The notes under the pieces: generated by a model
Databases searched by the model: none
Told to the model about the DNA's origin: nothing
Seen by the model: only the letters and a program-made list of their open reading frames with translations
Position numbers and translations under genes: made by a program
NCBI GenBank assembly: GCA_003230915.1
Contig: QIHI01000035.1
Location: forward strand, 1 to 46,298
DNA: 46,298 nucleotides
Direction: 5' to 3'
DNA from: Kiritimatiellales bacterium
GTDB lineage: Bacteria; Verrucomicrobiota; Kiritimatiellia; Kiritimatiellales; Pontiellaceae
Shown here: positions 27,706 to 45,348 of the stretch, piece after piece
Layout of the letters: each line of letters starts with the position of its first letter
How positions within the stretch are numbered: the stretch's first letter is position 1

Positions 27706-28965
27706 ATGAGTTTAGACAAAGCATATGAACTGGCAAAAGAGCGCTATGCAGCGTTCGGAATTGATGTCGACGTGGCGATTAAAAAAGCACTGAATCTCCC
27801 CATTTCCTTGCACTGTTGGCAGGCGGACGATGTGGTTGGATTTGAAACCAAGCCGGACGGTCTAGCCGGTGGCGGCATCATGGCAACCGGAAACTATCTC
27901 GGCCGCGCTCGCAATGGCGAAGAGGCTCGCGCTGACATTGCCAAAGCTATGTCGTTAATCCCCGGGATTCAACGTTGCAATGTGCACGCCCTTTATTGTG
28001 AAACCGATGAATACGTTGACCGCGATGAAATGACACTGGCCGGTTTCACGAAATGGATGGACTGGGCAAAGGAAGAGGGCATCAAACTCGATTTCAATCC
28101 TTCGTTCTTTTCCCACCCGAAAGCGGAAGACGGTTTCACGCTTTCGCATCGTGACGCTGAAATTCGCACGTTCTGGATCAAGCACGGCAAAGCCTCTCGC
28201 AAGATTGCCGAGGCCATGGCCGAAGCGCAGGGTTCGCCTTGCTTTGTCAACTGGTGGACGCCGGATGGCGACAAGGATGTTCCGGCCGACCGATTCAGCC
28301 CCCGCGCCCGCATGGCCGCCTCATACGATGCCATTATGGCCGATGATTCGGTGGATAAAACCAAGTGCGTCGATTTCATCGAAAGCAAGCTTTTCGGCAT
28401 CGGCTCGGAAGAGTATGTCGTCAGCTCCGCTGAGTTTTGTTCCAACTACGCCCTGAGCCGCAACATGGGTCTTTGCATGGATATGGGGCACTACCACCCG
28501 ACCGAAACGATCCACGGTAAGATTTCCAGTCACCTCCAGTTCATGGATCAAATCATGTTGCATGTCAGCCGTCCAATTCGCTGGGACTCTGATCACGTTG
28601 TGCTATTCAACGACGACCTGAAAAACGTCTTCCTTGAAATCCAGCGCGGTAACATGTGGGATCGCGTAATTCTTGCGCTCGATTTCTTCGATGCTTCGAT
28701 CAATCGCATTGGTGCTTACGTCATCGGCACCCGCGCGGCACGAAAAGGCATCCTCTATGCGTTACTTGACCCGACCCAACAGCTACAGACCTATGAAGCT
28801 GAAGGCAAGAAAGCCCAGCGCTTGGCGCTGATGGAAGAGTTTAAGTCCATGCCGTTTCCCGCCGTTTGGGACAAACTCTGCGAAAAGGGCAATGTTCCGG
28901 TCGGTGCCGATTGGCTGGCCGATATGGAGGCCTACGAAAACGACGTTTCCTCCAAGCGCAACTAG
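27706..28965 (+). CDS. rhaA: L-rhamnose isomerase
   Basis: 419 residues, the same length as E. coli RhaA. TIM-barrel isomerase: PISLHCWQADDVVGFE near the N-terminus; metal-site segments CMDMGHYHPTETIHGK and RWDSDHVV. It converts L-rhamnose to L-rhamnulose with Mn2+ or another divalent metal. AAGGAGAG sits 7 nt before the ATG. First gene of the rhamnose array, facing the AraC-type activator. The 130 bp between it and the aldolase has a short open frame without features. Confidence 0.97.
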   Translation: MSLDKAYELAKERYAAFGIDVDVAIKKALNLPISLHCWQADDVVGFETKPDGLAGGGIMATGNYLGRARNGEEARADIAKAMSLIPGIQRCNVHALYCETDEYVDRDEMTLAGFTKWMDWAKEEGIKLDFNPSFFSHPKAEDGFTLSHRDAEIRTFWIKHGKASRKIAEAMAEAQGSPCFVNWWTPDGDKDVPADRFSPRARMAASYDAIMADDSVDKTKCVDFIESKLFGIGSEEYVVSSAEFCSNYALSRNMGLCMDMGHYHPTETIHGKISSHLQFMDQIMLHVSRPIRWDSDHVVLFNDDLKNVFLEIQRGNMWDRVILALDFFDASINRIGAYVIGTRAARKGILYALLDPTQQLQTYEAEGKKAQRLALMEEFKSMPFPAVWDKLCEKGNVPVGADWLADMEAYENDVSSKRN

Positions 28966-29095
28966 GAGTTTCCGTGCATAAGAAAAAGAGTGTCGGAGCG
29001 GTGGGCGTATCTGATGGAGAGACATCCGGGCAACAGTCCAGTGGTCGTCCCTCAAAATTGAATATTTTGATTTATAAGTTACGAGGAGAGAACAA

Positions 29096-30148
29096 GTGAC
29101 TGATTTACAGACGATTGTTGAACTGTCGCACGAATTCGGCAGCGAGGATTATGTGAAGGGCGGCGGCGGTAATACCTCCGTGAAGAATGAAACCACGTTG
29201 TGGGTCAAGCCTTCCGGCACCACGTTGAGTGGACTGACCGAGGAGACCTTCGTGGCGATGAACCGCGAAAAAATCAACGAGCTGTACGCAGCAGAAACGC
29301 CCACCGAGCCGACCGTCCGCGAGGAGTTGGTGAAAAATTTGATGGCTGCCGCCGTTGAAAAGGGTGCAGGCCGCCCGTCGGTCGAAGCGCCATTGCACAA
29401 CGTGTTCGAGGCCATCTTCGTGGTGCATACCCATCCGGCGTCGGTGAATGGCTTGACCTGCGCCAAGGACGGTGAAGCGGCCTGTAAACGCCTCTGGCCC
29501 GATGCACTGTGGGTTGAATACATCGATCCGGGCTATACACTCTGTATGGAGGTGCGCAAACGCATCCAAGCTTACAAAGCGACAAATGGGAAAGAGCCTG
29601 CGTTGCTCGTACTGAAAAACCACGGGATCTTCATCGCGGCCGATACCGCCGAGGAAATCCATGCGCTTTATGGTCGTGTGATGGATACCCTGAAGGCGGA
29701 GTATGCTACGGCAGGGATTTCGCAGACCTTGAATGTTTCGGACGTTGTAGATGCACCGGAGACAGCGACTCAGATTCAGAATCTCTTTGGCGATGATGCC
29801 GCTTTTATCACCTCGAGCGGGATTTTTGTCTACTCGCCGGGGCCGATCACCCCCGACCATCTGGTCTATTCCAAAGCGTACCCATACTGTGGAGGCCTAG
29901 ACGAAAAATCTGTTGCAACATACAAGACCAAGAATGGCTACGCACCGAAAGTGGTTGTGGCAGGCGACCGGGTTTATGGCATCGGTACCTCGCAAAAGAA
30001 TGCGAACCTCGCCTTGGAGTTGGCGCAGGACGGCGCGCTACTCATCCAGCTGGCTGACGCCTTCGGAGGCATCAATTACATGACCGATGCTCAGCGCGAG
30101 TTTATTGACAACTGGGAAGTGGAAGCCTACCGCCAAAAACAGGCTTGA
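29096..30148 (+). CDS. Class II aldolase (rhamnulose-1-phosphate aldolase, RhaE-like)
   Basis: 350 residues from a GTG start preceded by GAGGAGAG. Class II aldolase/adducin fold: phosphate-binding GGGGNTS (22-28), SGTTL (40-44), zinc ligands H111 and H113 (VVHTHP) and H176 (KNHG), with E97 as probable acid/base. It is longer than E. coli RhaD (274) and resembles the aldolase half of the bifunctional RhaEW, including the terminal NWEVEAYR segment after which RhaEW proteins carry an SDR domain. Here the SDR is a separate gene (37650-38723). Expected reaction: L-rhamnulose 1-phosphate to DHAP and L-lactaldehyde. Substrate is inferred from its neighbours. Confidence 0.88.
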   Translation: MTDLQTIVELSHEFGSEDYVKGGGGNTSVKNETTLWVKPSGTTLSGLTEETFVAMNREKINELYAAETPTEPTVREELVKNLMAAAVEKGAGRPSVEAPLHNVFEAIFVVHTHPASVNGLTCAKDGEAACKRLWPDALWVEYIDPGYTLCMEVRKRIQAYKATNGKEPALLVLKNHGIFIAADTAEEIHALYGRVMDTLKAEYATAGISQTLNVSDVVDAPETATQIQNLFGDDAAFITSSGIFVYSPGPITPDHLVYSKAYPYCGGLDEKSVATYKTKNGYAPKVVVAGDRVYGIGTSQKNANLALELAQDGALLIQLADAFGGINYMTDAQREFIDNWEVEAYRQKQA

Positions 30149-30245
30149 TCGTTTCGTTCAGAGCCCCTTGATTACCTGTATCTAGGAATAGATGCGGGTT
30201 TTCTCTGTATAAGGGGTAAAATAAAAACCAAAAATCAGCTTGATA

Positions 30246-30286
30246 GAAAGTAAATAAAAGAGCAAAAGAAAGTAATTAGAAAGTAA
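30246..30286 (+). promoter_or_regulatory. Three direct GAAAGTAA repeats upstream of the DeoR gene
   Basis: GAAAGTAA occurs at 30246-30253, 30268-30275 and 30279-30286, with start-to-start spacings of 22 and 11 bp, so all three lie on one face of the helix. They are in an AT-rich leader 31-71 bp before the deoR start. DeoR-type repressors often bind repeats of this sort, so autoregulation is likely (inference). Confidence 0.5.
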
Positions 30287-30316
30287 TAGTAAATCTATTA
30301 GGAGCTAAAAGCGAAG

Positions 30317-31108
30317 TTGAGCGCAACATTTACAGAGCGACGCGAAATCATTCTAGAGGTGCTGGCAGAAGCTGGCAGCGTGAGTGTTTCGAGTCTTGCC
30401 AAGCGGCTGGGGGTTACCCCGGTGACGGTTCGCACGGATCTGGTTGCGCTGGAAGAGGAGGGTGTACTTGCACGCATCCACGGTGGGGCGCTGCCGGCTT
30501 TCCATTCCAATATTCTTGAACGATCGCGAAGAGATCGAGGAAGCAAGTCGGCCATCGCCAAGGCGGCGGCGGCAGAAATCCAGAATGGCGATACCGTGAT
30601 CATTAGTGCGGGAACCACCACAGCATTGATCGCCAAATACCTGTTGGGCAAACGCGATATCCACATTGTCACCAACAACACTCTGCTGCTTACCCATGCC
30701 CGCATGAACCCGCAACTACGTGTAACGCTCGTTGGCGGTGAGTTCCATGCCTCGGAAGAGGGAATCGTCGGTCCCATGGCCCTGTCGACCATCGACCAGT
30801 TCTACGTTTCCAAGACCTTCATCGGGATCGACGGGGCTTCGGTAAGGCAGGGTTTCACCGCCCATTTCCTTGAAAGCGCCGATCTAGTGCGTAAGATGGC
30901 CGACCAAGCCGACGAGGTAATCGTCGTTTCCGATTCCAGCAAGTTTGCCAAGTCCGGCTTTGCACGCATCCTTCAGTTCGATGAAGTGGATACGCTTGTG
31001 ACGGATGATCAATTAACCAGCGAGTTTGAAGAGATATTAACCCATGCCGATGTTCGAATTGTAAAAACTGGGGTGGAAAAGCAAGCTGTACGCAATACGA
31101 ATTACTAA
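30317..31108 (+). CDS. DeoR-family sugar-phosphate-responsive repressor
   Basis: 263 residues. An N-terminal winged helix (about 5-55, LAKRLGVTPVTVRTDLVALE) is followed by a DeoRC effector domain with the ISAGTTTALIAKYL (96-109) phosphate-sugar site. The start is a TTG at 30317: a stop lies in frame at 30299, no ATG precedes the helix-turn-helix, and GGAG is 12 nt upstream. It is placed inside the operon, 12 bp before the E2 gene, so it probably regulates the downstream dehydrogenase block in response to a sugar phosphate such as rhamnulose 1-phosphate. Confidence 0.9.
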   Translation: MSATFTERREIILEVLAEAGSVSVSSLAKRLGVTPVTVRTDLVALEEEGVLARIHGGALPAFHSNILERSRRDRGSKSAIAKAAAAEIQNGDTVIISAGTTTALIAKYLLGKRDIHIVTNNTLLLTHARMNPQLRVTLVGGEFHASEEGIVGPMALSTIDQFYVSKTFIGIDGASVRQGFTAHFLESADLVRKMADQADEVIVVSDSSKFAKSGFARILQFDEVDTLVTDDQLTSEFEEILTHADVRIVKTGVEKQAVRNTNY

Positions 31109-31120
31109 AGGAGAACCATC

Positions 31121-32446
31121 ATGGCTACAGAAATATTATTGCCGAGACAGGGACAGTCCGTAGAATCCTGCATCATTATTGAGTGGAAAGTGAATGAGGG
31201 GGATGTCGTCACTGAAGGGCAGACGCTCTGCGAAGTGGAAACCGATAAGGCAACCTTCGAAGTCGAGGCGACCGCATCCGGCACTGTACTTGGCATCTTC
31301 TATCCCGCCGACTCCGATGTTGAAGTCCTCAAGGTCATCGCCGCGATCGGCGAACCTGGAGAAGATGTTTCCGCTCTGCGCCCGGCAGATGAGGAAGCAC
31401 CAGTAGCCGCTGTTCCAGTAGTCGTGGAAGAACAAGTTAAAACCGCTCCGGTTGTTGCCACCGCCGAAGCTGGAAAAACAACCGGTATTTCCCCCCGTGC
31501 TAAAACCCTTGCGGTTCAAAAAGGAGTAGATACTTCAACGCTCGCCGGTACGGGACCGAACGGCCGAGTGATAGAGCGCGACGTTTCTACCGCGCAAGCG
31601 GTCACTCCTACCGCACAGGCCAAGGCTGCTGCCGAAGGGCTAGCAATTCCAAGCGCGGGAACTGGAATGGGCGGACGCGTTATTTCTGCTGATCTGGTGT
31701 CTGTCGCTCCAGAAGCCATCGGAGCAGCGGTTGCCTTGCTGGACTTCCCGGGCAACGCCACCGAAATCCCAGTCAAGGGTGTGCGCAAAGTTGTGGCGGG
31801 CCGTATGCTGGCCTCCCTTCAAAATACCGCGCAGCTCACGCTCAATACTTCGGCTGATGCGCGCTCCGTACTGGGCTATCGTTCGAAATGTAAAGCCGCT
31901 CCGGAAGAAGCTGGAGTCGGCGGTATCAGCATCAACGACGTGGTGCTCTATGCCACCGTTAAGACGTTGGCCGAATTTCCTGAGCTTAACGCCCACTATC
32001 TGGGCAGTAAGATCGTCAACTTCGGCAACATCCACCTTGGCTTTGCGGTCGATACGCCGCGCGGCCTGATGGTTCCGGTGATTCGTTATGCCAACCTAAT
32101 GACGCTCAAGCAGCTCTCTGCCGAGACCAAGCGCCTAGCGATGGCCTGCATCGAAGGCATGATCGAACCTGACGCGCTGAGCGGTGGAACTTTCACGGTT
32201 ACGAATCTCGGAGCGGCGGGCATCGAAAGTTTTACGCCAGTGCTGAATGCTCCGGAAGTGGGTATCCTAGGCGTCTGTGCTATCCAGCCGAAGCCAGTTA
32301 TGAACGGAGCCGAGATCGAGTTTATTCCGCACATGGGACTCTCGTTCACCTTCGACCACTGTGCTGCCGATGGCGCTCCCGCCGCCCGCTTTTTGGTCAG
32401 CCTTAAAACCAAGCTGGCTGCGTTTGAACTTACACTTGCAGGATAA
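31121..32446 (+). CDS. 2-oxoacid dehydrogenase complex E2 (dihydrolipoamide acyltransferase)
   Basis: 441 residues. One lipoyl domain (1-80) with the lipoylated lysine K43 in ETDKATFEV; an Ala/Pro/Val-rich linker; an E3/E1-binding domain (about 123-155, SPRAKTLAVQKGVD...GTGPNGRVIERDV); a second, degenerate copy of the binding domain (about 164-193, ending GTGMGGRVISADL); then the catalytic domain with H413 and D417 in HCAADG. It transfers the acyl group from E1 to CoA. AAAGGAG precedes the ATG; E3 starts 5 bp after its stop. Confidence 0.94.
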   Translation: MATEILLPRQGQSVESCIIIEWKVNEGDVVTEGQTLCEVETDKATFEVEATASGTVLGIFYPADSDVEVLKVIAAIGEPGEDVSALRPADEEAPVAAVPVVVEEQVKTAPVVATAEAGKTTGISPRAKTLAVQKGVDTSTLAGTGPNGRVIERDVSTAQAVTPTAQAKAAAEGLAIPSAGTGMGGRVISADLVSVAPEAIGAAVALLDFPGNATEIPVKGVRKVVAGRMLASLQNTAQLTLNTSADARSVLGYRSKCKAAPEEAGVGGISINDVVLYATVKTLAEFPELNAHYLGSKIVNFGNIHLGFAVDTPRGLMVPVIRYANLMTLKQLSAETKRLAMACIEGMIEPDALSGGTFTVTNLGAAGIESFTPVLNAPEVGILGVCAIQPKPVMNGAEIEFIPHMGLSFTFDHCAADGAPAARFLVSLKTKLAAFELTLAG

Positions 32447-32451
32447 ATTTA

Positions 32452-33795
32452 ATGAACTATGACATTATTATAATCGGGGCAGGACCGGGCGGCTATGAAA
32501 TGGCTGAGCGGGCGGCGCATAAAGGCAAAAAGGTTTTACTAGTCGAGAAAGCGAATCTGGGCGGGGTTTGCCTGAACCACGGTTGCATTCCGACCAAGAC
32601 GCTTTTGAATTCCGCAAAGCACTATGTACACGCCAAGGAAGCGCCGGAATTTGGCGTGACCACCGGCGAAGTACAGTTTGATTTATCTGTGGCCATGGGC
32701 TGGAAAAAGGATGTTATCCAAACCCTGCGCGGCGGTATTGCTGGGATGATGAAAAAGAATCAGGTCGAAACCCTTTTCGGCGAAGCCAAACTGCTTGGGT
32801 CGCGCAAAGTACAAGTCGGCGACACGGTTTATGAAGGCGATAACGTAGTGATTGCCACAGGCGGTTCACCGTTTGTTCCGCCGATTCCAGGCGCTGACCA
32901 GCCGCATGTGATGACCAGTAAGGAAATTCTGAATGTTGAAGAAATGCCTAAGTCACTCGTCGTGATTGGCGGCGGCGTGATCGGCATCGAGTTTGCCAGT
33001 TTCTTCAGTAGCCTCGGCGTAAAGGTCGATATTATTGAAATGCTCGATGAAATTATCCCGTTCATGGACAACGAACAGGCCGTGGCCTTCCGCAAGGCAC
33101 TCAAAGGCAAGATCGACTTCAATCTGGGTTGCCGCGTGACGGCCATTGATGGCCACAACGTGAAATATACCACCAAAGGTGGCGAGGAAAAATCGATCAA
33201 TGCCGACATCGTGCTGATGTCGGTGGGTCGTTCACCGAATCTGTCGGGTATGGGCTTCGATGAGGCTAAGCTCGATTTTGACCGCGTGGGAATTAAAACC
33301 GATGCCCAGCAGCGCACTAACCTACCGAATGTTTTCGCGATTGGGGATGTGACTGGCAAGTCACAGTTAGCACACTCCGCCACGCGGATGGGCGAGGTTG
33401 CCCTGAATACGATTCTCGGAAAGAAAGATAAGTTCCGTACGAATGCGATTCCATGGGTCGTCTATTCCATGCCCGAAATTGCTGGTTGCGGAATGACCGA
33501 AGAGCAGGCCAAGGAGGCTGGGCATACTGTGGAATCGGCCTCGTTACCTTTATTAATGAGCGGACGCTTCCTCGCCGAAAATGGAAAGAAAGGCGCAGGT
33601 TCAGTGAAGGTGGTGGTTGATGCCGAGACCCGAGTCTTGCTCGGTGTTCATATGTTCGGTGGAATTTGCTCAGAAATCATCTGGGGCGTGGCCGCACTGA
33701 TTGAAGCCGAGCTGAGAGTAGAGGATATCCAGGAAATCGTCTTCCCGCATCCGACGGTTGGCGAGGTGATTAGAAGTACGATGTTTCAACTTTAA
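32452..33795 (+). CDS. lpdA: Dihydrolipoamide dehydrogenase (E3)
   Basis: 447 residues. FAD-binding GAGPGG (9-14), redox disulfide C40/C45 in [15 protein letters not shown]-binding GGGVIGIEF and the C-terminal catalytic FPHPTVGE. It reoxidises dihydrolipoyl groups of E2 with NAD+. Its location between E2 and E1 genes dedicates it to this complex. Confidence 0.96.
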
Positions 33796-33818
33796 CTGAA
33801 TTAAACAGGAGAAGAACA

Positions 33819-36272
<2,454 letters not shown>

Positions 36273-36278
36273 GAAAAA

Positions 36279-36350
36279 AACCGCAGATGGTTAAACAGGA
36301 AACTTTGAATTTCGGAATTCAATATTCCTTGTTCAATCCTCGAAATTTGG
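36279..36350. repeat. Repeat-derived intergenic DNA before the PHP gene
   Basis: AACCGCAGATGG (36279-36290) is a variant of the ACCACAGA core seen elsewhere. It is followed by a block (about 36307-36348) whose minus strand reads TTGAACAAGGAATATTGAAT then TCCGAAATTC, a repeat type common, as I recall, in PVC intergenic DNA. Confidence 0.45.
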
Positions 36351-36363
36351 AGAGAAGAGCCAT

Positions 36364-37653
36364 ATGGGTTTAAATTCAAAAATAGTGAATGAGCGTCTCA
36401 AAGCGGTAAAAGAACTTGGGACAACCTGTAAAAACGGGGTGGCACAGACCGATGAGGTGAATAACCACGTCCACTCGATCTATTCGTTCAGCCCGTATTC
36501 GCCGACCCTGATTGCGGTGAAGGCGGTGGAGGCTGGGTTACAGACGGTGGGTATTATGGATCACGATTCTGTATCCGGCTGTGCGGAGTTTCTGGAGGCC
36601 AGCAAGGCGGTGAATATTGCCAGCACCGTGGGCTGCGAAATTCGGGTCAATATGGATGGTACGTCGGTTACGGGGCGCAAGACGAATAATCCGGACGAGC
36701 CGAACGTGAGTTATATAGCTTTTCACGGAATTCCAAAAACCCAGTTTTATGCGGTGAAGAAATTTCTAGCACCCATCCACAAGGCGCGCATTGCACGCGA
36801 CCGTAAAGAGGTGGAGAAGCTGAATGTACTACTTGCAGATCGTGGTGCTCCCACCTTGGATTTTGAGGTCGATGTTATGGCGATCTCTGAGGCGGCAGCG
36901 GGCGGGTCGGTCACCGAGCGGCATATTCTTTATGCTCTGTCACTCAAGTTAATCAAGGCGCATGGCAAGGGGCAGGCCTTGGTTAATTTTATTGAAGGCC
37001 CCATGCAGGTTCCCATGGCGGATGCATTGCGTGAACTGCTACTGGATTTGAACAACCCGCACTATGCTTACGACTTACTAGGAGCGTTCAAGGCGGCGTT
37101 CGTCCCCGAATTTTTCATCGTCTCTGGCTATGAAGAATGTATCTCGGTTTTTGATGCCGTTAAATTTGCTAACAAAATCGGAGCAATCCCGGCCTATGCC
37201 TATTTGGGCGATGTTGGTGAATCGCCCACAGGCGATAAAAAGGCTGAGAAATTTGAAGATGACTTCCTCGATGAATTAGTGCCAGAACTGGCGCACATTG
37301 GATTTAAAGCCATCACCTACATGCCGCCACGCAACACTCGGGAACAGCTGGCGCGTTTGCGGAAGCTTTGTCAGGCCAGCGGGCTGATGGAAATCAGCGG
37401 CGTGGATATCAACAGTTCGCGGCAGTCGTTCAACTGTCCAATCCTGTTGGAGCCAGAGTTCCAGCATCTGGCCGTTGCGGCCTGGGCGTTGATTGCGCAT
37501 GAAAAATTGACGGCATCCGATCCGAAATTAGCGTTGTTTAGTCCGGATAATCCGCTGGCTTCGCTTGCATTGGAAGAGCGGATTGAGAAATATGCCGACG
37601 TTGGAATCCGCATGGATCACACACAACCCGAAAAGGCTATTGAATTGATATGA
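36364..37653 (+). CDS. PHP-domain metal-dependent hydrolase
   Basis: 429 residues. PHP motifs: NNHVHSIYSF (H35, H37), MDHDS (D66-H67-D68) and the GCEIRV glutamate (E92), giving most of a trinuclear metal site; further His/Asp are scattered in the C-terminal half. PHP proteins include histidinol phosphatase and nucleoside or sugar-phosphate phosphoesterases. It is much longer than HisJ-like enzymes, with ~200 residues inserted. The stop overlaps the SDR start (ATGA), so it belongs to the rhamnose operon. A role as a sugar-phosphate phosphatase is inference. Confidence 0.85.
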   Translation: MGLNSKIVNERLKAVKELGTTCKNGVAQTDEVNNHVHSIYSFSPYSPTLIAVKAVEAGLQTVGIMDHDSVSGCAEFLEASKAVNIASTVGCEIRVNMDGTSVTGRKTNNPDEPNVSYIAFHGIPKTQFYAVKKFLAPIHKARIARDRKEVEKLNVLLADRGAPTLDFEVDVMAISEAAAGGSVTERHILYALSLKLIKAHGKGQALVNFIEGPMQVPMADALRELLLDLNNPHYAYDLLGAFKAAFVPEFFIVSGYEECISVFDAVKFANKIGAIPAYAYLGDVGESPTGDKKAEKFEDDFLDELVPELAHIGFKAITYMPPRNTREQLARLRKLCQASGLMEISGVDINSSRQSFNCPILLEPEFQHLAVAAWALIAHEKLTASDPKLALFSPDNPLASLALEERIEKYADVGIRMDHTQPEKAIELI

Positions 37654-38723
37654 AAAAGCTAGAAGTTGCACCTTTACTAAGAGGCTTGTCGTTCGACGGA
37701 GAGAAAGGCGACATCGTCGTTTCCAAGGCGCGTATCGATTATGCAGAGCTGACCTGCTCGTTGGACGAGTTGTCCGAAAAGTTTGAACAGGGCATGCGCT
37801 CGGTTATCGTGGATGGAGTTGGAGGCTTCCTGCTCGGCGAAGATTACGACGATGCCGAGAATGGAACGAGCAAAGCTCAAAAGAGTACGGGTCGTGCTGC
37901 CGTGGTACACAACAAGGTGTGCGTGGTGACGGGCGGTGCACAGGGCTTTGGCGAGAGCATTGTTCGCGAATTGATCAAGAACGGAGCGCTCGTTTTTATT
38001 GCCGACATGAATGCCACCGGAGCCAAGAAGCTGGCTACTGAACTCAATGAGCAGGAAGACCGTACGGTGGCCTTCGGTGTGCCCGTCAATGTGACCGATG
38101 AAAAGTCAGTCCAGAAAATGGTCGACAGGATTGTCAAGACCGTGGGTGGAATTGACCTGTTCATCAGCAACGCTGGTGTGCTTAAGGCGGGGAGTGTGAA
38201 GGAACTGAGTCTTAAGGATTTTGAGTTTGTGACCGATGTCAACTATGTCGGCTTTTTCCTCTGCACCAAGCATGTTTCTCCAGTGATGGAATTGATGAAT
38301 CAGCCGCATGGAAACTATTACACCGACATCGTCAGCATCAGCTCCAAGTCGGCCCTGGAGGGTTCCAATAAAAACGGTGCCTATGCCGGTTCCAAGTTTG
38401 GTTCGGTCGGCCTTGTACAAAGTTTCGCTAAAGAGTTGGTTGCAGACAACACGAAGGTCAACACCGTTTGCCCCGGAAACTTTTTCGACGGGCCGCTTTG
38501 GAGCGATCCCGAGCGAGGTTTGTTCGTGCAGTACCTGAACACGGGCAAGGTGCCCGGTGCGGAGACCGTCGAAGATGTTAAACAGTTCTACGAGGCACAG
38601 GTTCCGATGAACCGCGGCTGCGATGGTGAGGACGTCACCAAAGCGATCCTCTACTCCGTCGAGCAAAAGTATGAAACCGGCCAGGCCATTCCGGTAACTG
38701 GCGGCCAAGTGATGTTAAATTAA
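37650..38723 (+). CDS. Short-chain dehydrogenase (RhaW-like or sorbitol-6-P dehydrogenase-like)
   Basis: 357 residues. An ~88-residue N-terminal extension of unknown role precedes a classical SDR domain: NAD(P) site TGGAQGFG (94-101), NAG (174-176), catalytic S232 and YAGSK (Y245, K249). An aspartate (D119) after beta-2 suggests NAD preference. It could be the split-off partner of the RhaE-like aldolase (lactaldehyde dehydrogenase) or a polyol-phosphate dehydrogenase acting with the next gene. It is coupled to the PHP gene upstream. Confidence 0.88.
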   Translation: MKKLEVAPLLRGLSFDGEKGDIVVSKARIDYAELTCSLDELSEKFEQGMRSVIVDGVGGFLLGEDYDDAENGTSKAQKSTGRAAVVHNKVCVVTGGAQGFGESIVRELIKNGALVFIADMNATGAKKLATELNEQEDRTVAFGVPVNVTDEKSVQKMVDRIVKTVGGIDLFISNAGVLKAGSVKELSLKDFEFVTDVNYVGFFLCTKHVSPVMELMNQPHGNYYTDIVSISSKSALEGSNKNGAYAGSKFGSVGLVQSFAKELVADNTKVNTVCPGNFFDGPLWSDPERGLFVQYLNTGKVPGAETVEDVKQFYEAQVPMNRGCDGEDVTKAILYSVEQKYETGQAIPVTGGQVMLN

Positions 38724-38734
38724 GGAGAAATTCG

Positions 38735-40006
38735 ATGAAAACAAAAGCAGTTAGATTGTATGGCGAAAAAGATTTACGGCTGGAGGAATTCGAGCTTCCC
38801 GCGATTGGTGAAAATGAAATCTTAGCCAAAATTGTGTCCGATTCCATCTGTATGTCGTCCTACAAAGCTTCATCACAGGGCACGAAACACAAGCGCATCC
38901 CCAACGATGTTGCGGAGAATCCAATCATTATCGGTCATGAGTTCTGCGGCGAAATCGTCGAAGTCGGTGGCAAGTGGACGGGTCAATTTAAGGCAGGCGA
39001 CAAGTTTTCGATCCAACCCGCGATCAACTATGCGGACGGCCCAGTGGGCATTCTATCAGCTCCCGGATATTCGTATCAAAATATTGGCGGCGACTCGCAA
39101 TATGTTGTTATTCCTGCCGAGGTAATGGAACAGGATTGCCTGCTACCGTTTAGCGGTGAGGCCTACTACCACGGTTCACTGGCCGAGCCAGTATCGTGCA
39201 TTATCGGTGGGTTCCATGCCAACTACCACACTACACCCGGGAGCTATGTCCACAAGATGGGCATTGTCGAAGGCGGAGCCATGGCACTGCTCGCAGGGGT
39301 GGGGCCGATGGGGCTGGGTGCAATCGACTATGCGATCCACTGCGACCGCAAGCCGTCGGTGTTGGTCGTGACCGATATTGACAATGCACGGCTTGAGCGT
39401 GCCGCTTCGATCTACACCATCGAGGAAGCCAAAGCGAATGGCGTGGAACTTATCTACGTTAATACAGCTGAAGAAGGCAAAGACGTGGACTACCTTAAGT
39501 CGCTCACGCCGAACAACGGCGGTTTCGATGATGTGTTTGTCTATGCGCCGGTGGCACCGGTGCTGGAGCAGGCCGACAAGATCCTCGGATTCGACGGCTG
39601 TCTCAACTTTTTTGCGGGGCCGACCAACCCCGAATTTTCGGCATCATTCAACTTCTACAATGTCCACTATGCGGCAACGCACGTGGTCGGAACCAGCGGC
39701 GGAAACACCGCCGACATGGTCGAGTCGCTCAAGATGATGGAATCCGGAAAGCTCAACCCGTCCACCATGATCACGCACGTCGGTGGTTTGGATGCTGTGA
39801 TTGAAACCACGCTCAATCTCCCGAACATTCCGGGCGGAAAGAAGCTGATCTATAACAACATCAGCATGCCGCTCGTCGCACTCGACGATCTTAAGGGCAT
39901 AGAAGGCAAACTCTATCAGGGGCTCGCCGGACTCGTCGAGAAGCACAACGGACTCTGGAGTCCGGAAGCAGAGGAATATCTGCTGGCCAACGCGCCGAGC
40001 ATTTAA
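38735..40006 (+). CDS. Zinc-dependent medium-chain dehydrogenase, SorE-like
   Basis: 423 residues. Catalytic zinc ligands C39, H68-E69 and E151; Rossmann motif GVGPMGLG (188-195). The four-Cys structural zinc loop of horse-liver-type enzymes is absent. Overall layout resembles L-sorbose-1-phosphate reductase (SorE). With the SDR just upstream it recalls the SorE-SorD redox pair that epimerises a ketose phosphate via a hexitol phosphate. AAGGAG precedes the ATG. In a rhamnose locus possible substrates are rhamnulose 1-phosphate, lactaldehyde or propanediol. Confidence 0.85.
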   Translation: MKTKAVRLYGEKDLRLEEFELPAIGENEILAKIVSDSICMSSYKASSQGTKHKRIPNDVAENPIIIGHEFCGEIVEVGGKWTGQFKAGDKFSIQPAINYADGPVGILSAPGYSYQNIGGDSQYVVIPAEVMEQDCLLPFSGEAYYHGSLAEPVSCIIGGFHANYHTTPGSYVHKMGIVEGGAMALLAGVGPMGLGAIDYAIHCDRKPSVLVVTDIDNARLERAASIYTIEEAKANGVELIYVNTAEEGKDVDYLKSLTPNNGGFDDVFVYAPVAPVLEQADKILGFDGCLNFFAGPTNPEFSASFNFYNVHYAATHVVGTSGGNTADMVESLKMMESGKLNPSTMITHVGGLDAVIETTLNLPNIPGGKKLIYNNISMPLVALDDLKGIEGKLYQGLAGLVEKHNGLWSPEAEEYLLANAPSI

Positions 40007-40028
40007 AAAGAGATGCGGTGGTCTCAGT

Positions 40029-40178
40029 ATGCAGGGTCTGATTTTCGATGTGGATGGTGTCATGGCCGATATCGAGCGGGTCAATGCAGCGGACTCGATC
40101 AAAGTCTTTTCCGATCTATTTGGTGCAGACGAGCAGGTAGTTTCCGCCACCGAGGCACTCCAGAGTGTTTTCTGGTGA
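40029..40178 (+). pseudogene. Truncated HAD-family phosphatase (beta-phosphoglucomutase-like)
   Basis: 49 codons beginning MQGLIFDVDGVMADIERVN, the HAD motif I (DVDGV with nucleophile D7) and the start of the cap, then a stop. A complete enzyme is about 220 residues, so everything after the cap start is lost. It sits between the MDR and rhamnulokinase genes. A hairpin ATACGCA-GGT-TGCGTGT lies just downstream (about 40214-40232). Confidence 0.7.
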
Positions 40179-40301
40179 TGTTGGAGGTGATGTTGCACTC
40201 CGCTCGGGTTTCCATATACGCAGGTTGCGTGTATGACAGGAAGCAACGTGAAGAATAAGAAGCCCGATCCGGAGTGGATTTGATTGAGCGGGGGGATTGA
40301 G

Positions 40302-41756
40302 ATGAAGAAGCATTATCTGGCAGTAGATCTAGGGGCATCGAGCGGGCGCACGATTGTGGGAACCTTCGAAGATGGCAAGCTGTCGCTCAAGGAGATGAAT
40401 CGGTTCTGGAACGGGCCGACTGAGATTTTAGGCACCCTCTACTGGGATTTTGTTCATCTTTTTCGCTGTATTCAAGAGGGCATTACCCTCGCAAAAAAGG
40501 AGTATGGCGACGGACTTATTTCGATGGGGATCGACACATGGGGCGTTGATTTTGGTCTATTTGATGCGGATGGGAAACTCCTCCGAAATCCGGTTCACTA
40601 TCGCGACAGCCGTACCAATGGCATGTTTGAACAGGTATTTGATCGTGTCCCAAAAGCTGAGGTTTTTGCCCAGACGGGTATTCAATTCATGGAACTGAAT
40701 ACCCTCTACCAACTGATGTCTCGAACGTTGGACGATTCGTTCCAATACAAGGCAGCCTCCAAAATATTGTTTGTACCCGACCTGCTTAACTATTGGCTCA
40801 CGGGGGAAATGGCAGCCGAACGTAGTTTTGCAAGCACCACTCAATTTTATAACCCTGTCACGAAAGACTGGGCCTACGGCTTACTCGAAAAGTTAGGCAT
40901 TCGCACCGACCTATTTGCTGAATTGGTCGATCCGGGTACCGTGGTCGGTGATGCCGATGGGCTACCTGTTGTGGCGGTCGGTAGCCACGACACCGCCAGT
41001 GCTTTTGCCGCCGTTCCGGTGGTGGAGGGCGAACATAGTGCTTTCCTGAGTTCCGGAACTTGGTCGCTACTCGGCACCGAATTGCCGGCGCCAGTTATTA
41101 ACGCCGACGTGCTCGCGGCCAATTTTACCAACGAAGTCGGTGTGTGCGATACCATCCGCTTCCTGAAAAACCTTTCCGGTCTTTGGATTATTCAGGAGCT
41201 GCGCCGCGTTTGGAACGAACAGGATTTCGGTTATTCTTGGCATGCCATGGAACACATGGCGCTGGAAGCGCAGCCCTTCGAATTCTTTGTGGATCCGAGT
41301 GACGATGTATTTCTCGCGCCTGGAGATATGGCTAGCCGCATCCAAGAATATTGCACACGCACCGGGCAGAGCCGCCCCGAGACGCATGCACAAATCCTGC
41401 GTGCCGCATACGAGGGCTTGGCGTTTCTCTATGCCCACACCTACGACACACTGGAGCAGCTTTCCGGCCGACCGCTGAATACGCTCCGGATTGTCGGCGG
41501 TGGATGCAAAGATACGTTGCTCGACCAGTTGGCCGCAAATGCCACAGGCCGAAGAGTCGTCACCGGACCCATCGAAGCCACGGCCACCGGAAATCTGATT
41601 GTCCAGATGCTGGCGATGGGCGATATTCAGTCGCTAGCGGAAGGGCGTGAAATTATTCGTAACTCGTTTGCCGAAGAAACCCAGACTTTTGAACCGCAAG
41701 AGCAAGCCGCGTGGCGGGATGCTCTTGAAAAATGGCGCACCATTAACAATAAATAA
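40302..41756 (+). CDS. rhaB: L-rhamnulokinase
   Basis: 484 residues from the ATG at 40302; the frame opens at a TTG 18 bp earlier, but that stretch contains the G-rich ribosome site. FGGY kinase: phosphate loop DLGASSGR, substrate loop IDTWGVDFGL, SHDTASAF and the second ATP motif FLSSGTWSLLG, all typical of RhaB. It phosphorylates L-rhamnulose at O-1 with ATP. It follows the HAD relic and precedes transketolase by 23 bp. It is remote from rhaA, with seven intact genes between. Confidence 0.93.
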   Translation: MKKHYLAVDLGASSGRTIVGTFEDGKLSLKEMNRFWNGPTEILGTLYWDFVHLFRCIQEGITLAKKEYGDGLISMGIDTWGVDFGLFDADGKLLRNPVHYRDSRTNGMFEQVFDRVPKAEVFAQTGIQFMELNTLYQLMSRTLDDSFQYKAASKILFVPDLLNYWLTGEMAAERSFASTTQFYNPVTKDWAYGLLEKLGIRTDLFAELVDPGTVVGDADGLPVVAVGSHDTASAFAAVPVVEGEHSAFLSSGTWSLLGTELPAPVINADVLAANFTNEVGVCDTIRFLKNLSGLWIIQELRRVWNEQDFGYSWHAMEHMALEAQPFEFFVDPSDDVFLAPGDMASRIQEYCTRTGQSRPETHAQILRAAYEGLAFLYAHTYDTLEQLSGRPLNTLRIVGGGCKDTLLDQLAANATGRRVVTGPIEATATGNLIVQMLAMGDIQSLAEGREIIRNSFAEETQTFEPQEQAAWRDALEKWRTINNK

Positions 41757-41779
41757 TTAACCTAGAAAGGAATAAAATA

Positions 41780-43765
41780 ATGAATCTTAAACTCGTAGCA
41801 AACACGATTCGTGGACTCTCGATGGACGGCGTTCAAGCCGCCAACTCAGGCCACCCCGGTCTGCCGCTTGGTATGGCCGATGTTGCCACCGTACTTTGGA
41901 CACAGTTCCTCAAACACAACCCGCAAAATCCCGATTGGGTCGACCGCGACCGCTTTGTACTTTCCGCTGGTCACGGCTCGATGCTGATCTACAGCTTACT
42001 TCACCTTGCGGGCTATGACCTGCCGCTCGATGAACTCAAAAACTTCCGCCAGTGGGGTAGCAAGACGGCTGGCCACCCGGAATACGGTCATACCGTCGGT
42101 ATCGAGACCACCACCGGTCCGCTCGGCCAGGGTTGCGGCAACGCCGTCGGCATGGCGATTGCGGAAAAAATGCTTGCCGCACGCTTCAACACCGCCGCCC
42201 ATAAGATCGTCGATCACTTCACCTATGTCATCGCCTCCGAGGGGGAGTTCATGGAAGGCATCTCCCACGAGGTCTTCTCGCTCGCCGGAAACCATGGACT
42301 GGGCGACTTGATCGTTTTCTACGATGAAAATTTCATCAGTATTGAAGGCGATACGCACATGACCTATACCGACGATGTTGAAAAGCGCATGGAAGCCTAC
42401 GGCTGGCATGTACAACGAATCAATGGGCATGACTTCGATGATATCACCTCTGCCACTCGCATCGCGCAGAAAGAAACCGGCAAGCCATCGGTCATCATCT
42501 GTAACACAACCATTGGCTTCGGCTCCCCGAACAAGGCCGGTTCTCACGACTGCCACGGTGCGCCGCTCGGTGATGACGAAGTTTCGCTCACCAAGGAAGC
42601 TCTCGGCATCTCGCAGGAAAAATTCTTCGTACCCGAAGAAGTCCGCACCATCTTCGCGGAGGTCGCCTCAGAAAACGCCAAACGCGAAGTGATCTGGAAT
42701 AACCTCTTCGATGAATTTGCGAAAGCCAATCCCGAAAAGGCTACAGAATGGAACACCTGTATTAAGGGCGAACTCCCTGCTGATCTAGCAGACCAGATCG
42801 GGGACTTTGAAGCAGGAGGCTCCATTGCTACTCGTTCCGCCTCCGGAAAGATACTACAGGATCTGGCCAAGGCGGTGCCGTACCTTGTAGGCGGTTCGGC
42901 CGATCTCGCACCGTCGAATAATACCGATCTTAAGGGACTTGGCGACATCGGCGCGAATGCATTTGAAGGGCGGAATTTCCACTTTGGTGTGCGCGAAATC
43001 GGTATGGGCGCGATTATGAACGGTGTGCAGGTTCATGGAGGGTTCCGTATCTTTGGCGCAACCTTCCTTGTTTTCGCCGACTACGTTCGTCCAACCACCC
43101 GTGTGGCTGCACTGATGAACCTGCCAGTGCTGTATGTCTACACGCATGATAGTTTCTATGTCGGTGAAGACGGCCCAACCCACCAGCCGATTGAAACGCT
43201 GATGAGCCTTCGCATCACCCCAAACGTTACCGTCATCCGCCCCTCGGATGCCACGGAAACCAAGTATGCATGGATTGCGGCACTCGAAAATCAGTCTGGG
43301 CCAACAGCCCTGTTGCTTACCCGTCAAAATCTGCCGATTTTTGATCGCGAAGAACTGGCTGGAGCTGAAAACCTTAAGAAGGGAGCCTACACCATCTGGG
43401 AAAGCGCCGAAAGCGATCACGATATTTTGATTGTAGCTAGCGGCTCGGAAGTATGGCTCTCCATCGACGCTGGCAAAAAACTGGCTCAAGAGGGCAAGAA
43501 AGTCCGCGTCGTCAGTTTCCCGTGCTGGGAAATTTTCGAACAGCAGAGCGCGGAATACAAAGCATCCGTCTTCCCGTCGGAATGCAAAAAACGGTTGGCC
43601 GTTGAAGCCGGTTGGCCAACGGGTTGGGAAAAGTATGTGGGTCTCGACGGCGCGATCATAGGGGTCGACCACTTCGGTGCATCCGCTCCGGGCGGTAAGC
43701 TGGCCGAAGAATTTGGGATCAACGCTGATAACGTCTATGTGCAAGCCAAAGAGCTACTGAACTAG
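41780..43765 (+). CDS. tkt: Transketolase
   Basis: 661 residues, full length. AANSGHPGLPLGMAD near the N-terminus, GPLGQGCGNAVG, and the pyrimidine domain with REIGMGAIMNGV and DSFYVGEDGPTHQPIE. The diphosphate motif, usually GDGxxMEG...N, reads SEGEFMEG with YDENFIS, so the Mg-binding Asp appears replaced by Glu while the Asn remains. Transfers two-carbon units between sugar phosphates in the pentose phosphate pathway using thiamine diphosphate. AAAGGAA precedes the start. Confidence 0.95.
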   Translation: MNLKLVANTIRGLSMDGVQAANSGHPGLPLGMADVATVLWTQFLKHNPQNPDWVDRDRFVLSAGHGSMLIYSLLHLAGYDLPLDELKNFRQWGSKTAGHPEYGHTVGIETTTGPLGQGCGNAVGMAIAEKMLAARFNTAAHKIVDHFTYVIASEGEFMEGISHEVFSLAGNHGLGDLIVFYDENFISIEGDTHMTYTDDVEKRMEAYGWHVQRINGHDFDDITSATRIAQKETGKPSVIICNTTIGFGSPNKAGSHDCHGAPLGDDEVSLTKEALGISQEKFFVPEEVRTIFAEVASENAKREVIWNNLFDEFAKANPEKATEWNTCIKGELPADLADQIGDFEAGGSIATRSASGKILQDLAKAVPYLVGGSADLAPSNNTDLKGLGDIGANAFEGRNFHFGVREIGMGAIMNGVQVHGGFRIFGATFLVFADYVRPTTRVAALMNLPVLYVYTHDSFYVGEDGPTHQPIETLMSLRITPNVTVIRPSDATETKYAWIAALENQSGPTALLLTRQNLPIFDREELAGAENLKKGAYTIWESAESDHDILIVASGSEVWLSIDAGKKLAQEGKKVRVVSFPCWEIFEQQSAEYKASVFPSECKKRLAVEAGWPTGWEKYVGLDGAIIGVDHFGASAPGGKLAEEFGINADNVYVQAKELLN

Positions 43766-43780
43766 CGACAGATAACGAAC

Positions 43781-43835
43781 CATTAATCCTCGCTAATCGG
43801 CTCTATCCAGCGGGCTGAATTAGTGAAGATTAATG
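43781..43835. repeat. 17-bp inverted repeat between tkt and the phosphohexomutase gene
   Basis: CATTAATCCTCGCTAAT (43781-43797) pairs with ATTAGTGAAGATTAATG (43819-43835), 15 of 17 positions, around a 21-nt loop. No U-run follows, so it is not a typical terminator. Another member of the short palindromic intergenic elements in this window. Confidence 0.7.
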
Positions 43836-43869
43836 TTAATAATGATTTTAAGTTTCGGAAGACTGGGTA

Positions 43870-45348
43870 ATGGATAAATATTTCAAGTTGCAGAATGGAA
43901 GTGATGTGCGCGGTGTGGCTCTCGAAGGTGTTGCAGGCGAGCCGGTCACGTTGACTGAAGACATTGCGCGAACCATCGGCTATGCCTTTGCTCAATGGTT
44001 GGAAAAACGTAGTGGCCAATCGGGCTTGAAGGTGGCTGTAGGGCACGATTCACGCCTTTCCTCCGATATGATCAAGACCGCGATTTTCCAAGGGCTGGAA
44101 AAGGGCGGTTGTGATGTCTTTGACTGCGGCTTGGCTTCAACTCCGGCGATGTTCATGTCGACCGTGTTCGAAAATCACGGCTACGACGGATCGATTATGC
44201 TGACCGCTAGTCACCTACCGTTCAATCGCAATGGAATGAAGTTTTTTGTGCGCGAGGGCGGACTTGAAAAGCAAGATATCACAGCAATTCTCGAAACTGC
44301 ATCCTCGATCGGTGAATTTCAAGGTCTGGAACTTTTCAGTGTTCAAAAGGTTGCACTGATGGATGATTATGCCGCCCATTTGGTGCAGGTTATTCGCGTC
44401 GGCGCGGGAAGTGCTCAGCCGCTGGCCGGATTGAAAATTGTGGTCGATGCTGGAAATGGAGCGGGCGGATTTTTTGTGAATCAAGTGCTCAATCCACTAG
44501 GTGCGGATAGCACCGGTAGTCAGTTCCTCGATCCCGACGGATCGTTCCCGAACCATATTCCAAATCCAGAAGACAAGGACGCGATGGATGCGATCGTCGC
44601 GGCGGTGAAGGGTAACGGAGCTGACTTTGGCATCATCTTCGACACGGACGTTGATCGTGCGGGTGCCGTAGACAAGAATGGCAAGCCGATCAACCGCAAT
44701 CGCTTCATTGCGCTGATGGCCGCCATCGTACTCGGCGAGCACCCCGGTTCCACGATTGTCACGGACTCGGTTACTTCAACCGGATTGAAATGGTGGATCG
44801 AAGAAAAGTTGGGCGGTGTTCATCATCGCTTCCAGCGCGGCTATAAGAACGTCATTAACGAAGCGGTTCGTTTGAATGAAGCTGGAACGCCATCGTTCCT
44901 TGCGTTGGAAACCTCTGGCCATGGGGCGCTGAAAGAAAACTATTGGCTCGATGACGGTGCCTACCAGATTGCTAAAATTTTGATTAAAATCGCCAGTCTT
45001 AAGACAACGGGGCAAGGGACGGTCGACGAGCTTATTGCCGAACTGCCGGAACCCGTCGAAGCACTGGAGTTTCGCCCGCAAATCGTGACGGACGATTTCT
45101 CGGTCTATGCCGACGAAGTGCTCGAAAAGTTCAAGGTCTTTGTCGAAGCCGAGCCGGGCTGGTCGCTCACGCCCGATAGTTATGAGGGGGTGCATGTAAC
45201 GTGCGAAAACGGCTGGGTACTGGTACGCAAGTCGCTCCACGATCCGCAGATCCCGATTAACATCGAAAGCGATATTCCGGGTGGTGTTGCTGTGATCGAG
45301 GAAAAAGTACGAGTCTTTCTTTCTGCTTTTGATGGTCTCAAACTTTGA
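43870..45348 (+). CDS. Phosphomannomutase/phosphoglucomutase family protein
   Basis: 492 residues. Alpha-D-phosphohexomutase: phosphoserine loop TASHLPFN (S114), metal loop DTDVDR (D258, D260, D262), sugar loop LETSGHGALKENYWLDDG and a C-terminal phosphate-binding domain. It interconverts hexose 1- and 6-phosphates via a bisphosphate. ETSGH resembles the (G)EMSGH of dual PMM/PGM enzymes, but substrate preference is not decided. It is 104 bp after tkt and followed by a hairpin terminator; may be the last gene of the array. Confidence 0.92.
   Translation: MDKYFKLQNGSDVRGVALEGVAGEPVTLTEDIARTIGYAFAQWLEKRSGQSGLKVAVGHDSRLSSDMIKTAIFQGLEKGGCDVFDCGLASTPAMFMSTVFENHGYDGSIMLTASHLPFNRNGMKFFVREGGLEKQDITAILETASSIGEFQGLELFSVQKVALMDDYAAHLVQVIRVGAGSAQPLAGLKIVVDAGNGAGGFFVNQVLNPLGADSTGSQFLDPDGSFPNHIPNPEDKDAMDAIVAAVKGNGADFGIIFDTDVDRAGAVDKNGKPINRNRFIALMAAIVLGEHPGSTIVTDSVTSTGLKWWIEEKLGGVHHRFQRGYKNVINEAVRLNEAGTPSFLALETSGHGALKENYWLDDGAYQIAKILIKIASLKTTGQGTVDELIAELPEPVEALEFRPQIVTDDFSVYADEVLEKFKVFVEAEPGWSLTPDSYEGVHVTCENGWVLVRKSLHDPQIPINIESDIPGGVAVIEEKVRVFLSAFDGLKL

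Follow-up and report, generated by a model that had tools for sequence, protein, structure and literature searches.

A conserved E1-E2-E3 gene module associated with L-fucose and L-rhamnose use in Kiritimatiellales and other bacteria

L-Fucose and L-rhamnose rank among the major sugars of mucus and of polysaccharides from algae and plants; all phosphorylated routes known to us for their breakdown make lactaldehyde. We analyzed a 46,298-base stretch of contig C4 (the window) from a metagenome-assembled genome (MAG) of a Kiritimatiellales bacterium (assembly GCA_003230915.1; 1.9 Mb, 92.7% complete, so that absences from it are soft), in which the genes for an E1-E2-E3 complex of the 2-oxoacid dehydrogenase type, a PHP-fold hydrolase, a short-chain dehydrogenase/reductase (SDR) and a medium-chain dehydrogenase/reductase (MDR) lie among rhamnose genes. 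The RhaEW pathway (Rodionova et al. 2013, PMC3870299), as presented in the accessible part of that paper, resembles this locus in having an isomerase, a kinase, a class II RhaE-like aldolase and an SDR, the last two being fused in many Bacteroidota that carry the module, and in having DeoR regulators in some lineages. The module differs in that its SDR is SrlD-like and not RhaW-like, and in that it adds a SorE-type MDR, PHP and a full E1-E2-E3; the term "pyruvate dehydrogenase" occurs 0 times in the accessible part of PMC3870299.

The L-sorbose operon of Klebsiella and Serratia likewise joins a SorE-family reductase to an SDR hexitol-phosphate dehydrogenase, so that the carbonyl is shifted between the chain ends, whereas the module has no phosphotransferase system (PTS) and its SDR falls outside the SorD clade; a deoxy substrate would, in addition, give a methyl ketone, and a cleaving complex is present in the module. 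The acetoin dehydrogenase complex (e.g. in locus L186) is also a thiamine pyrophosphate (TPP)/lipoate complex, shares the His of the "xHRxHG" motif in E1 alpha and has the chemistry expected here (CH3-CO-CHOH-R to acetyl-CoA and an aldehyde), but the module E1 belongs to another clade, is fused and is about 150 residues longer, and the window array has no acetoin reductase or butanediol genes. The fucose/rhamnose microcompartment of Planctomycetota and Verrucomicrobiota, as described in the accessible part of PMC8857213, concerns the same sugars in the same phylum; in contrast, no shell proteins and no CoA-acylating aldehyde dehydrogenase were found in the genome with our module, and the two systems seldom share a genome (see below). 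No pathway of this composition was described in the literature searched, where coverage was thin for subscription journals, in agreement with an initial annotation made from the sequence alone.

The module E2-E3-E1-PHP-SDR-MDR was shown by association to serve the use of L-fucose and L-rhamnose. Co-occurrence was scored in 288 genomes of the phylum, of which 105 carried the E1, either as group A (at least 49% identity to the window E1, n = 52 genomes) or as group B (35-41%, n = 53); two partial E1s (G242, G284) were counted as carriers, and E1 matches of 29-33% (mostly separate-gene and similar to pyruvate dehydrogenase, PDH) and beta-only matches were not. With fucI matches weaker than ~1e-20 (31 of the 191 genomes with a match) and araA matches weaker than 1e-60 (18 of 84) excluded, rhaA or fucI was present in 103 of the 105 carriers, as compared with 105 of the 183 other genomes (p = 2e-16; the Fisher p values given here ignore kinship and are too small, related genomes not being independent). 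The control araA was found in 26 carriers and 40 of the others (p = 0.56). Groups A and B were never found in one genome (0/288 observed, 9.6 expected), as expected of equivalents. Within the window's genus and its sister family, rhaA or fucI occurred in 10/10 carriers and neither in 3/3 non-carriers (p = 0.0035); two of the seven genus mates (G035, G087) lacked the E1 and also both isomerase genes.

A scan of 84,980 species confirmed at least 586 relatives of the E1, the best 80 named loci of which were kept and underlie all counts per 80 loci given here. Deoxyhexose genes (rhaA in 6, rhaT in 3, fucI in 7, fucP in 3 and fucU in 7) marked a union of 17 loci, as compared with 0/80 for four control genes (araA, xylA, uxaC and uxaA; Fisher p = 6e-6), although the queries were unequal in reach, those for deoxyhexoses coming partly from the loci themselves and the controls from E. 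coli alone. Outside the four counted controls, the query araB gave one match, an FGGY kinase in L126. In 34 carrier genomes drawn from 34 of these loci (33 outside the phylum and one Pontiella), 31 had rhaA or fucI, after exclusion of rhaA matches of 1e-5, fucI matches of 3e-35 and 7e-4, and 38-bit paralogues. Since fucI was present in 30 and rhaA in 23 of the 34, fucose is linked to the module at least as strongly as rhamnose, and the rhamnose-specific array of the initial annotation gave way to a broader one; its view of the complex as dedicated to deoxyhexose breakdown was borne out by the neighborhoods in several phyla and by the genome co-occurrence. Bacterial microcompartment (BMC) shell genes were found in 2/105 carriers, which thus have both systems, vs 45/183 other genomes, and among the 202 genomes that have rhaA or a strong fucI match, 77 had neither this E1 nor a shell, indicating that other routes exist.

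Neighborhoods were compared in 58 loci around the E1 within the phylum (a 59th locus held a different E1) and in the 39 of the 80 wider loci that were well flanked, with at least 4 kb before and at least 5 kb after E1. What is conserved is E2-E3-E1 with PHP-SDR-MDR behind it, a unit present in at least five phyla. In the well-flanked loci, tblastn detected E2 in 39, E3 in 33, PHP in 29, SDR in 27, MDR in 25 and deoR in 23, with PHP, SDR and MDR together in 23 (some SDR and MDR matches may be paralogues). By record title, E1 carriers belong to the wide-sense Verrucomicrobiota, Spirochaetota, Bacteroidota, Actinomycetota (Propionibacteriaceae), Clostridia, Calditrichota, Chloroflexota and "Atribacteria", and PHP, SDR and a SorE-type MDR were found together in Verrucomicrobiota, Spirochaetota, Bacteroidota, Clostridia and "Atribacteria"; the closest named E1 relatives, among the matches listed, are MAGs and isolates of Kiritimatiellales/Pontiellaceae (91-94% identical). 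A GntR gene replaces deoR in many Bacteroidota loci. Among the loci compared, only the window and its close relative L095 have rhaA and the aldolase directly before deoR, rhaA and a RhaE-like aldolase lie behind the module in L109 and L111, and the trio rhaB-tkt-pgm behind the MDR is confined to the genus; in two Spirochaetia just a kinase lies behind the MDR, and Bacteroidales L168 has a downstream hexomutase (54% identical). The window array is therefore a conserved module placed in a local rhamnose context, younger than it appears, and the idea of a single conserved rhamnose block was rejected, its head and tail being local. The genes that had been listed are all present on the plus strand; with the divergent regulator before them, they are:

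26614-27525, minus strand: AraC-family regulator, RhaS/RhaR-like, divergent (NF010028, 172 bits, below the cut-off of 288)
27706-28965, plus strand: rhaA, L-rhamnose isomerase (NF002203, 617 bits, cut-off 572; PF06134)
29096-30148, plus strand: class II aldolase, weakly RhaE-like (PF00596, 66 bits; NF006196, 94 bits)
30317-31108, plus strand: DeoR-family regulator, head of the module (PF00455, PF08220)
31121-32446, plus strand: E2, with lipoyl, E3-binding and acyltransferase domains (PF00364, PF02817, PF00198)
32452-33795, plus strand: E3, dihydrolipoyl dehydrogenase (TIGR01350, 474 bits, cut-off 409)
33819-36272, plus strand: fused E1 alpha-beta, 817 amino acids, group A (PF00676, PF02779, PF02780)
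36364-37653, plus strand: predicted PHP-fold metal-dependent phosphoesterase (PF02811)
37650-38723, plus strand: SDR, hexitol-phosphate dehydrogenase-like, nearest SrlD (NF009050, 224 bits; top PDB match 5o3z)
38735-40006, plus strand: MDR, predicted SorE-family ketose-1-phosphate reductase (48-49% to annotated SorE)
40029-40178, plus strand: HAD-like gene remnant, 49 codons then stop (FDVDGV motif)
40284-41756, plus strand: FGGY sugar kinase, rhamnulokinase-like, rhaB (TIGR02627, 464 bits, cut-off 528)
41780-43765, plus strand: tkt, transketolase (TIGR00232, 875 bits, over the cut-off)
43870-45348, plus strand: phosphohexomutase (PF02878-80; TIGR03990, 240 bits)

In the E1 tree, groups A and B and three rhizobial proteins formed one clade (100/100; midpoint root, some long branches), separate from the PDH-like, acetoin (AcoAB) and branched-chain (Bkd) references, the PDH-like ones being unassayed proteins. 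Identity between the window E1 and six other E1s from the phylum is 25-28% for alpha and 33-36% for beta, and groups A and B have in common two alpha insertions that the other printed references lack. E1 retains the TPP motif, the GHS loop and the Glu and His of the beta subunit, and the complex has the TPP motif, lipoyl domain and acyltransferase His-Asp, parts expected of a PDH complex. The alpha motif reads HR in the window E1 and in both acetoin enzymes, as opposed to YR in four references (two PDH-like, Sulfitobacter and branched-chain); at this site, which we take to touch the substrate, the His is invariant in 22/22 group A/B sequences. Next to the rhizobial relatives (~50%) lie a free lipoyl domain and an alpha/beta hydrolase, which one record names acoC, along with varying neighbors (a kinase of the PfkB or FGGY type, mannitol dehydrogenase, ABC transporters for sugars, a xylose-isomerase-like protein); the rhizobial stretches shown have a sugar setting with no rhamnose gene annotated. 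Two Bacteroidota have a lipoate-protein ligase gene next to the module, tested in L156 and present as a relative in L171.

The MDR shares 48-49% of its residues, over the full length, with annotated L-sorbose-1-phosphate reductase SorE (Serratia, Klebsiella), 52% with YggP of E. coli and 46% with a protein from a sorbose-type PTS locus of Lactiplantibacillus, the other MDRs compared reaching 25-28%. SorE was placed among the module MDRs in the tree, and by sequence the module MDR is a SorE-family ketose-1-phosphate reductase. The SDR gene overlaps the PHP gene by 4 nt, and its product has an N-terminal extension of ~85 residues. Its best match was E. coli SrlD (35%, 152 bits), followed by L-iditol dehydrogenase (94 bits), two RhaW domains (26-30%, at most 92 bits) and three SorD proteins (27-29%, at most 85 bits), and in the tree SrlD was nearest (fork 87/79) and RhaW formed a clade of its own; judged by these comparisons, the SDR is nearest to SrlD and not RhaW-like. 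The SDR carries a fused RhaE-like aldolase domain in 14 loci, almost all of them from Bacteroidota, and in this respect resembles RhaEW. In the Calditrichia loci L110 and L126 the module includes a mannitol-1-phosphate 5-dehydrogenase-like gene, with no SDR gene picked. The SorE, SrlD and mannitol-1-phosphate 5-dehydrogenase types are known for ketose and hexitol phosphates, not for lactaldehyde. A model of PHP built from 28 sequences (mean predicted local distance difference test score 93.8) matched metal-dependent phosphoesterases (3o0f; 2yb1, with AMP and phosphate; RNase AM), and His35, His37, Asp66, Glu92, His187 and His379 are invariant over two PHP subgroups, so that PHP should, on its model, be a working phosphoesterase.

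Taken together, family membership, gene content and co-occurrence suggest a carbonyl shift on a 6-deoxyketose-1-phosphate followed by E1-E2-E3 cleavage to acetyl-CoA and a tetrose phosphate, a proposed chemistry whose chances we regard as evenly balanced. RhaA or FucI with the FGGY kinase would yield L-rhamnulose-1-phosphate or L-fuculose-1-phosphate, the C2 ketone of which would be reduced by the SorE-like MDR to a 6-deoxyhexitol-1-phosphate; the SrlD-like SDR would then oxidize the C5 carbinol next to the methyl group, giving a 1-deoxyketose-6-phosphate (CH3-CO-CHOH-...), an acetoin-like hydroxy methyl ketone. These two steps would be net redox-neutral, as in the sorbose pathway. The TPP/lipoate complex would split the ketone into acetyl-CoA, NADH and a tetrose-4-phosphate, which would be the same from both sugars, since the old C4 becomes the aldehyde, and would be D-threose-4-phosphate if the MDR has the facial selectivity of SorE (stereochemistry by hand). 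In hand-drawn structures, L-sorbose, L-fuculose and L-rhamnulose would present the same SDR-oxidized carbinol, and the latter two would differ only at C4, so that one module could handle both sugars. Isomerization and transketolase/transaldolase would take the tetrose phosphate into the pentose phosphate pathway, and the operon transketolase (one family) and transaldolase-family gene fit such a product. The RhaE-like aldolase could be a rhamnose-specific helper, either a C4 epimerase making fuculose-1-phosphate, class II aldolases able to epimerise at C4 being described in the accessible part of PMC5434028, or a parallel aldolase branch; the two are equally possible, as the RhaE-like protein keeps the aldolase-type Glu.

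Several observations weigh against this proposal, the enzyme activities of which are predictions. Neither rhaA nor fucI was found in 3 of the 34 and 2 of the 105 carriers, and PHP, SDR and MDR were all absent from 8 of the 39 well-flanked loci. The Tyr/His site of E1 is also His in two E1s of no assigned type, and a structure model of E1 matched pyruvate, branched-chain and oxoglutarate dehydrogenases (PDH, BCKDH, OGDH) and transketolase alike, fold matches being generic for TPP enzymes. The fork between SDR and SrlD is weakly supported, with long branches, and NF009050 gave 224 of the 307 bits of its cut-off. Group B and some Propionibacteriaceae (Actinobacteria) carry a different, unplaced MDR, c18 (L136, L114, L055, L090), of 560-650 residues and with a large insertion, which seems to replace the SorE-type MDR. 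To our knowledge, D-threose-4-phosphate is not a standard intermediate. Near the module, a transaldolase-family gene is present in 8/80 loci (three phyla), transketolase in 4/80 (one family) and an RpiB-type isomerase in 0/80. The gene of the FSA/TalC type fell below its equivalog cut-off and could encode a fructose-6-phosphate aldolase. All the rhaA-positive genomes tested keep an aldolase, and the window aldolase, by sequence, retains the Glu of aldolases. The operon in L164 encodes an aldolase of two domains together with a FucO-like protein. In the accessible parts of PMC7356697 and PMC6388578, Pontiella sulfatireligans is described as producing 1,2-propanediol when grown on fucose, and the mapped genes that one figure legend names for it include fucA, fucO and aldA; the aldolase not seen near its module thus probably lies elsewhere in the genome. 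Judging from L164 and from this species, the lactaldehyde route and the proposed one can coexist in one cell.

The strongest competitor, which we consider possible but unlikely, is that an aldolase yields dihydroxyacetone phosphate and L-lactaldehyde, which the SDR and MDR oxidize via lactate or methylglyoxal to a 2-oxo compound for E1-E2-E3 to convert to acetyl-CoA. It draws on rhaA and the RhaE-like aldolase flanking the module (in front in the window and L095, behind in L109 and L111), on the aldolase-SDR fusion of many Bacteroidota, on the oxidation of L-lactaldehyde to L-lactate by RhaEW in vitro (PMC3870299, accessible part), on the propanediol of P. sulfatireligans and on the rarity of genomes having both the module and microcompartments, a known lactaldehyde device. 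RhaEW, however, requires no complex, and the SDR and MDR are of other types than this route suggests. A search for class II aldolases (PF00596) in 17 genomes (13 of the genus and sister family and 4 others, including six of the seven rhaA-negative group A carriers, G221 being left out) found none in 6: three non-carriers and the fucI-positive carriers G127, G247 and G047. G127 and G247, of the window's genus, lack rhaA and have the full module and kinase; the fetched stretch of G047 has only deoR-E2-E3-E1. A RhaE-like aldolase was present in 8/8 rhaA-positive genomes, as compared with 1/6 rhaA-negative carriers tested, indicating that it tracks rhamnose, not the module. The fused aldolase-SDR was too weak a marker of rhamnose use, rhaA being found in 12 of 14 genomes with the fusion and in 11 of 20 others. 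Two fucose loci have no aldolase in the fetched stretch: Bacteroidales L168 (fucI, a fuculokinase over its cut-off, fucP, a transaldolase/FSA-family gene and E2-E3-E1-PHP-SDR-MDR) and P. sulfatireligans L102, the module of Pontiella strain F21 (fucI, fucP, transaldolase/FSA, deoR-E2-E3-E1-PHP-SDR-MDR, an FGGY kinase and transketolase).

In the window's own genome no AldA-, PduP-, AdhE- or FucO-type enzyme was found (the only Aldedh-family protein found was ProA and the only Fe-ADH match AroB), nor any other exit for lactaldehyde, which favors the proposed route, and 0 BMC shell proteins (PF00936), extending to the whole MAG what had been noted for the locus. The earlier idea that the locus turns deoxyhexose carbon into acyl-CoA stands in part: the dedicated complex is supported by association, and lactaldehyde as its likely feed has lost ground to the SorE-family MDR, the SrlD-like SDR and the three fucI-positive carriers without class II aldolase.

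It is improbable, as we see it, that the complex is an ordinary PDH co-regulated with sugar genes by happenstance. Every catalytic part is homologous to PDH, and the MAG has no assured pyruvate:ferredoxin oxidoreductase, its single POR_N protein being a generic 2-oxoacid:acceptor oxidoreductase (pyruvate formate-lyase was not searched for); the complex could still have a pyruvate role in this MAG. Its E1, however, falls in a separate clade with insertions of its own, the genus mates G035 and G087 do without it as they do without rhaA and fucI, the link to these isomerases is strong and that to araA nil, and the rhizobial relatives come with sugar genes and with an E2 that is split. A pathway for sorbose, sorbitol or another hexitol with deoxyhexose neighbors by chance, which the names of the MDR and SDR (SorE, sorbitol-6-phosphate dehydrogenase) would invite, is very improbable, as Pontiella did not grow on sorbose or sorbitol (PMC6388578, PMC7356697, accessible parts), no PTS gene was found among the window proteins scanned around the cassette, and deoxyhexose genes mark 17 of the 80 loci, as opposed to none for the controls, with the unequal query reach stated above.

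The remaining observations concern the genes around these. rhaA scored 564 bits against TIGR01748, under its cut-off of 585, and over the cut-off of the equivalog NF002203. Where the window has the HAD-like remnant, a label resting on a motif we presume to be diagnostic, relatives of the genus and sister family have an inorganic pyrophosphatase behind the MDR (NF001886, over the cut-off; e.g. L101:16287-16895); decay from such a gene was rejected, as tblastn of the pyrophosphatase on 39901-40400 gave 26-residue matches only (E 1.5). No convincing DNA motif common to the array's intergenic stretches was found: 1/15 pairs beat all 50 shuffles, with two more near, so that the single regulon of the initial annotation is conjectural. 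In most Kiritimatiellales relatives (L102, L036, L034 and others) the E3 frame has ~570 residues, with an E2-like lipoyl stretch before the E3 part, as compared with 447 in the window. Small PF05635 genes (23S rRNA-intervening-sequence four-helix type) lie between module genes in two unrelated lineages (L095, L096, L040, L041; L131, L140, L144, L149, L153, L155; members of L096 and L153 tested). Other E1s include a 1107-residue fusion of E1 alpha-beta (PDH_E1_alph_x type) with a FabH/KAS III domain (genome G000, contig C20, L093:2835-6155), followed by a gene for a 979-residue protein with a GH43 domain, and a separate-gene E1-E2-E3 set on a Clostridioides plasmid (L182:1989-7909) after a sugar-binding regulator, an MFS transporter and a GH43 gene. 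The window also has an exosortase (EpsH) and EpsI-like pair at 19803-21547; a 1359-residue exosortase-TPR protein follows E1 in L158, with a relative in L170.

According to the accessible parts of PMC7356697 and PMC6388578, Pontiella strains grow on L-fucose and L-rhamnose, and not on sorbitol or sorbose, though sorbitol use was predicted; strain F1 forms H2, acetate and ethanol with minor lactate and succinate, and F21 additionally 1,2-propanediol; fucK was not found in F1 or F21, nor aldA in F1. The module's FGGY kinase and its SrlD- and SorE-like genes could explain these fucK, aldA and sorbitol gaps. A new fucose/rhamnose pathway without lactaldehyde, which would use a new class of TPP/lipoate complex akin to yet separate from pyruvate and acetoin dehydrogenases and would form, across at least five phyla, a counterpart to the lactaldehyde microcompartment, is put forward tentatively, its chances being slightly under even. 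If it is true, acetyl-CoA, and hence ATP, would be gained directly from the methyl end of these sugars, the genome-based reading of anaerobic deoxyhexose fermentation would change, and the growth of Pontiella on fucose without a recognized fucK or aldA could be explained. A sugar-phosphate-cleaving member would be added to the 2-oxoacid dehydrogenase superfamily, and new names would be needed for genes now called pyruvate dehydrogenase, sorbitol-6-phosphate dehydrogenase and sorbose reductase.

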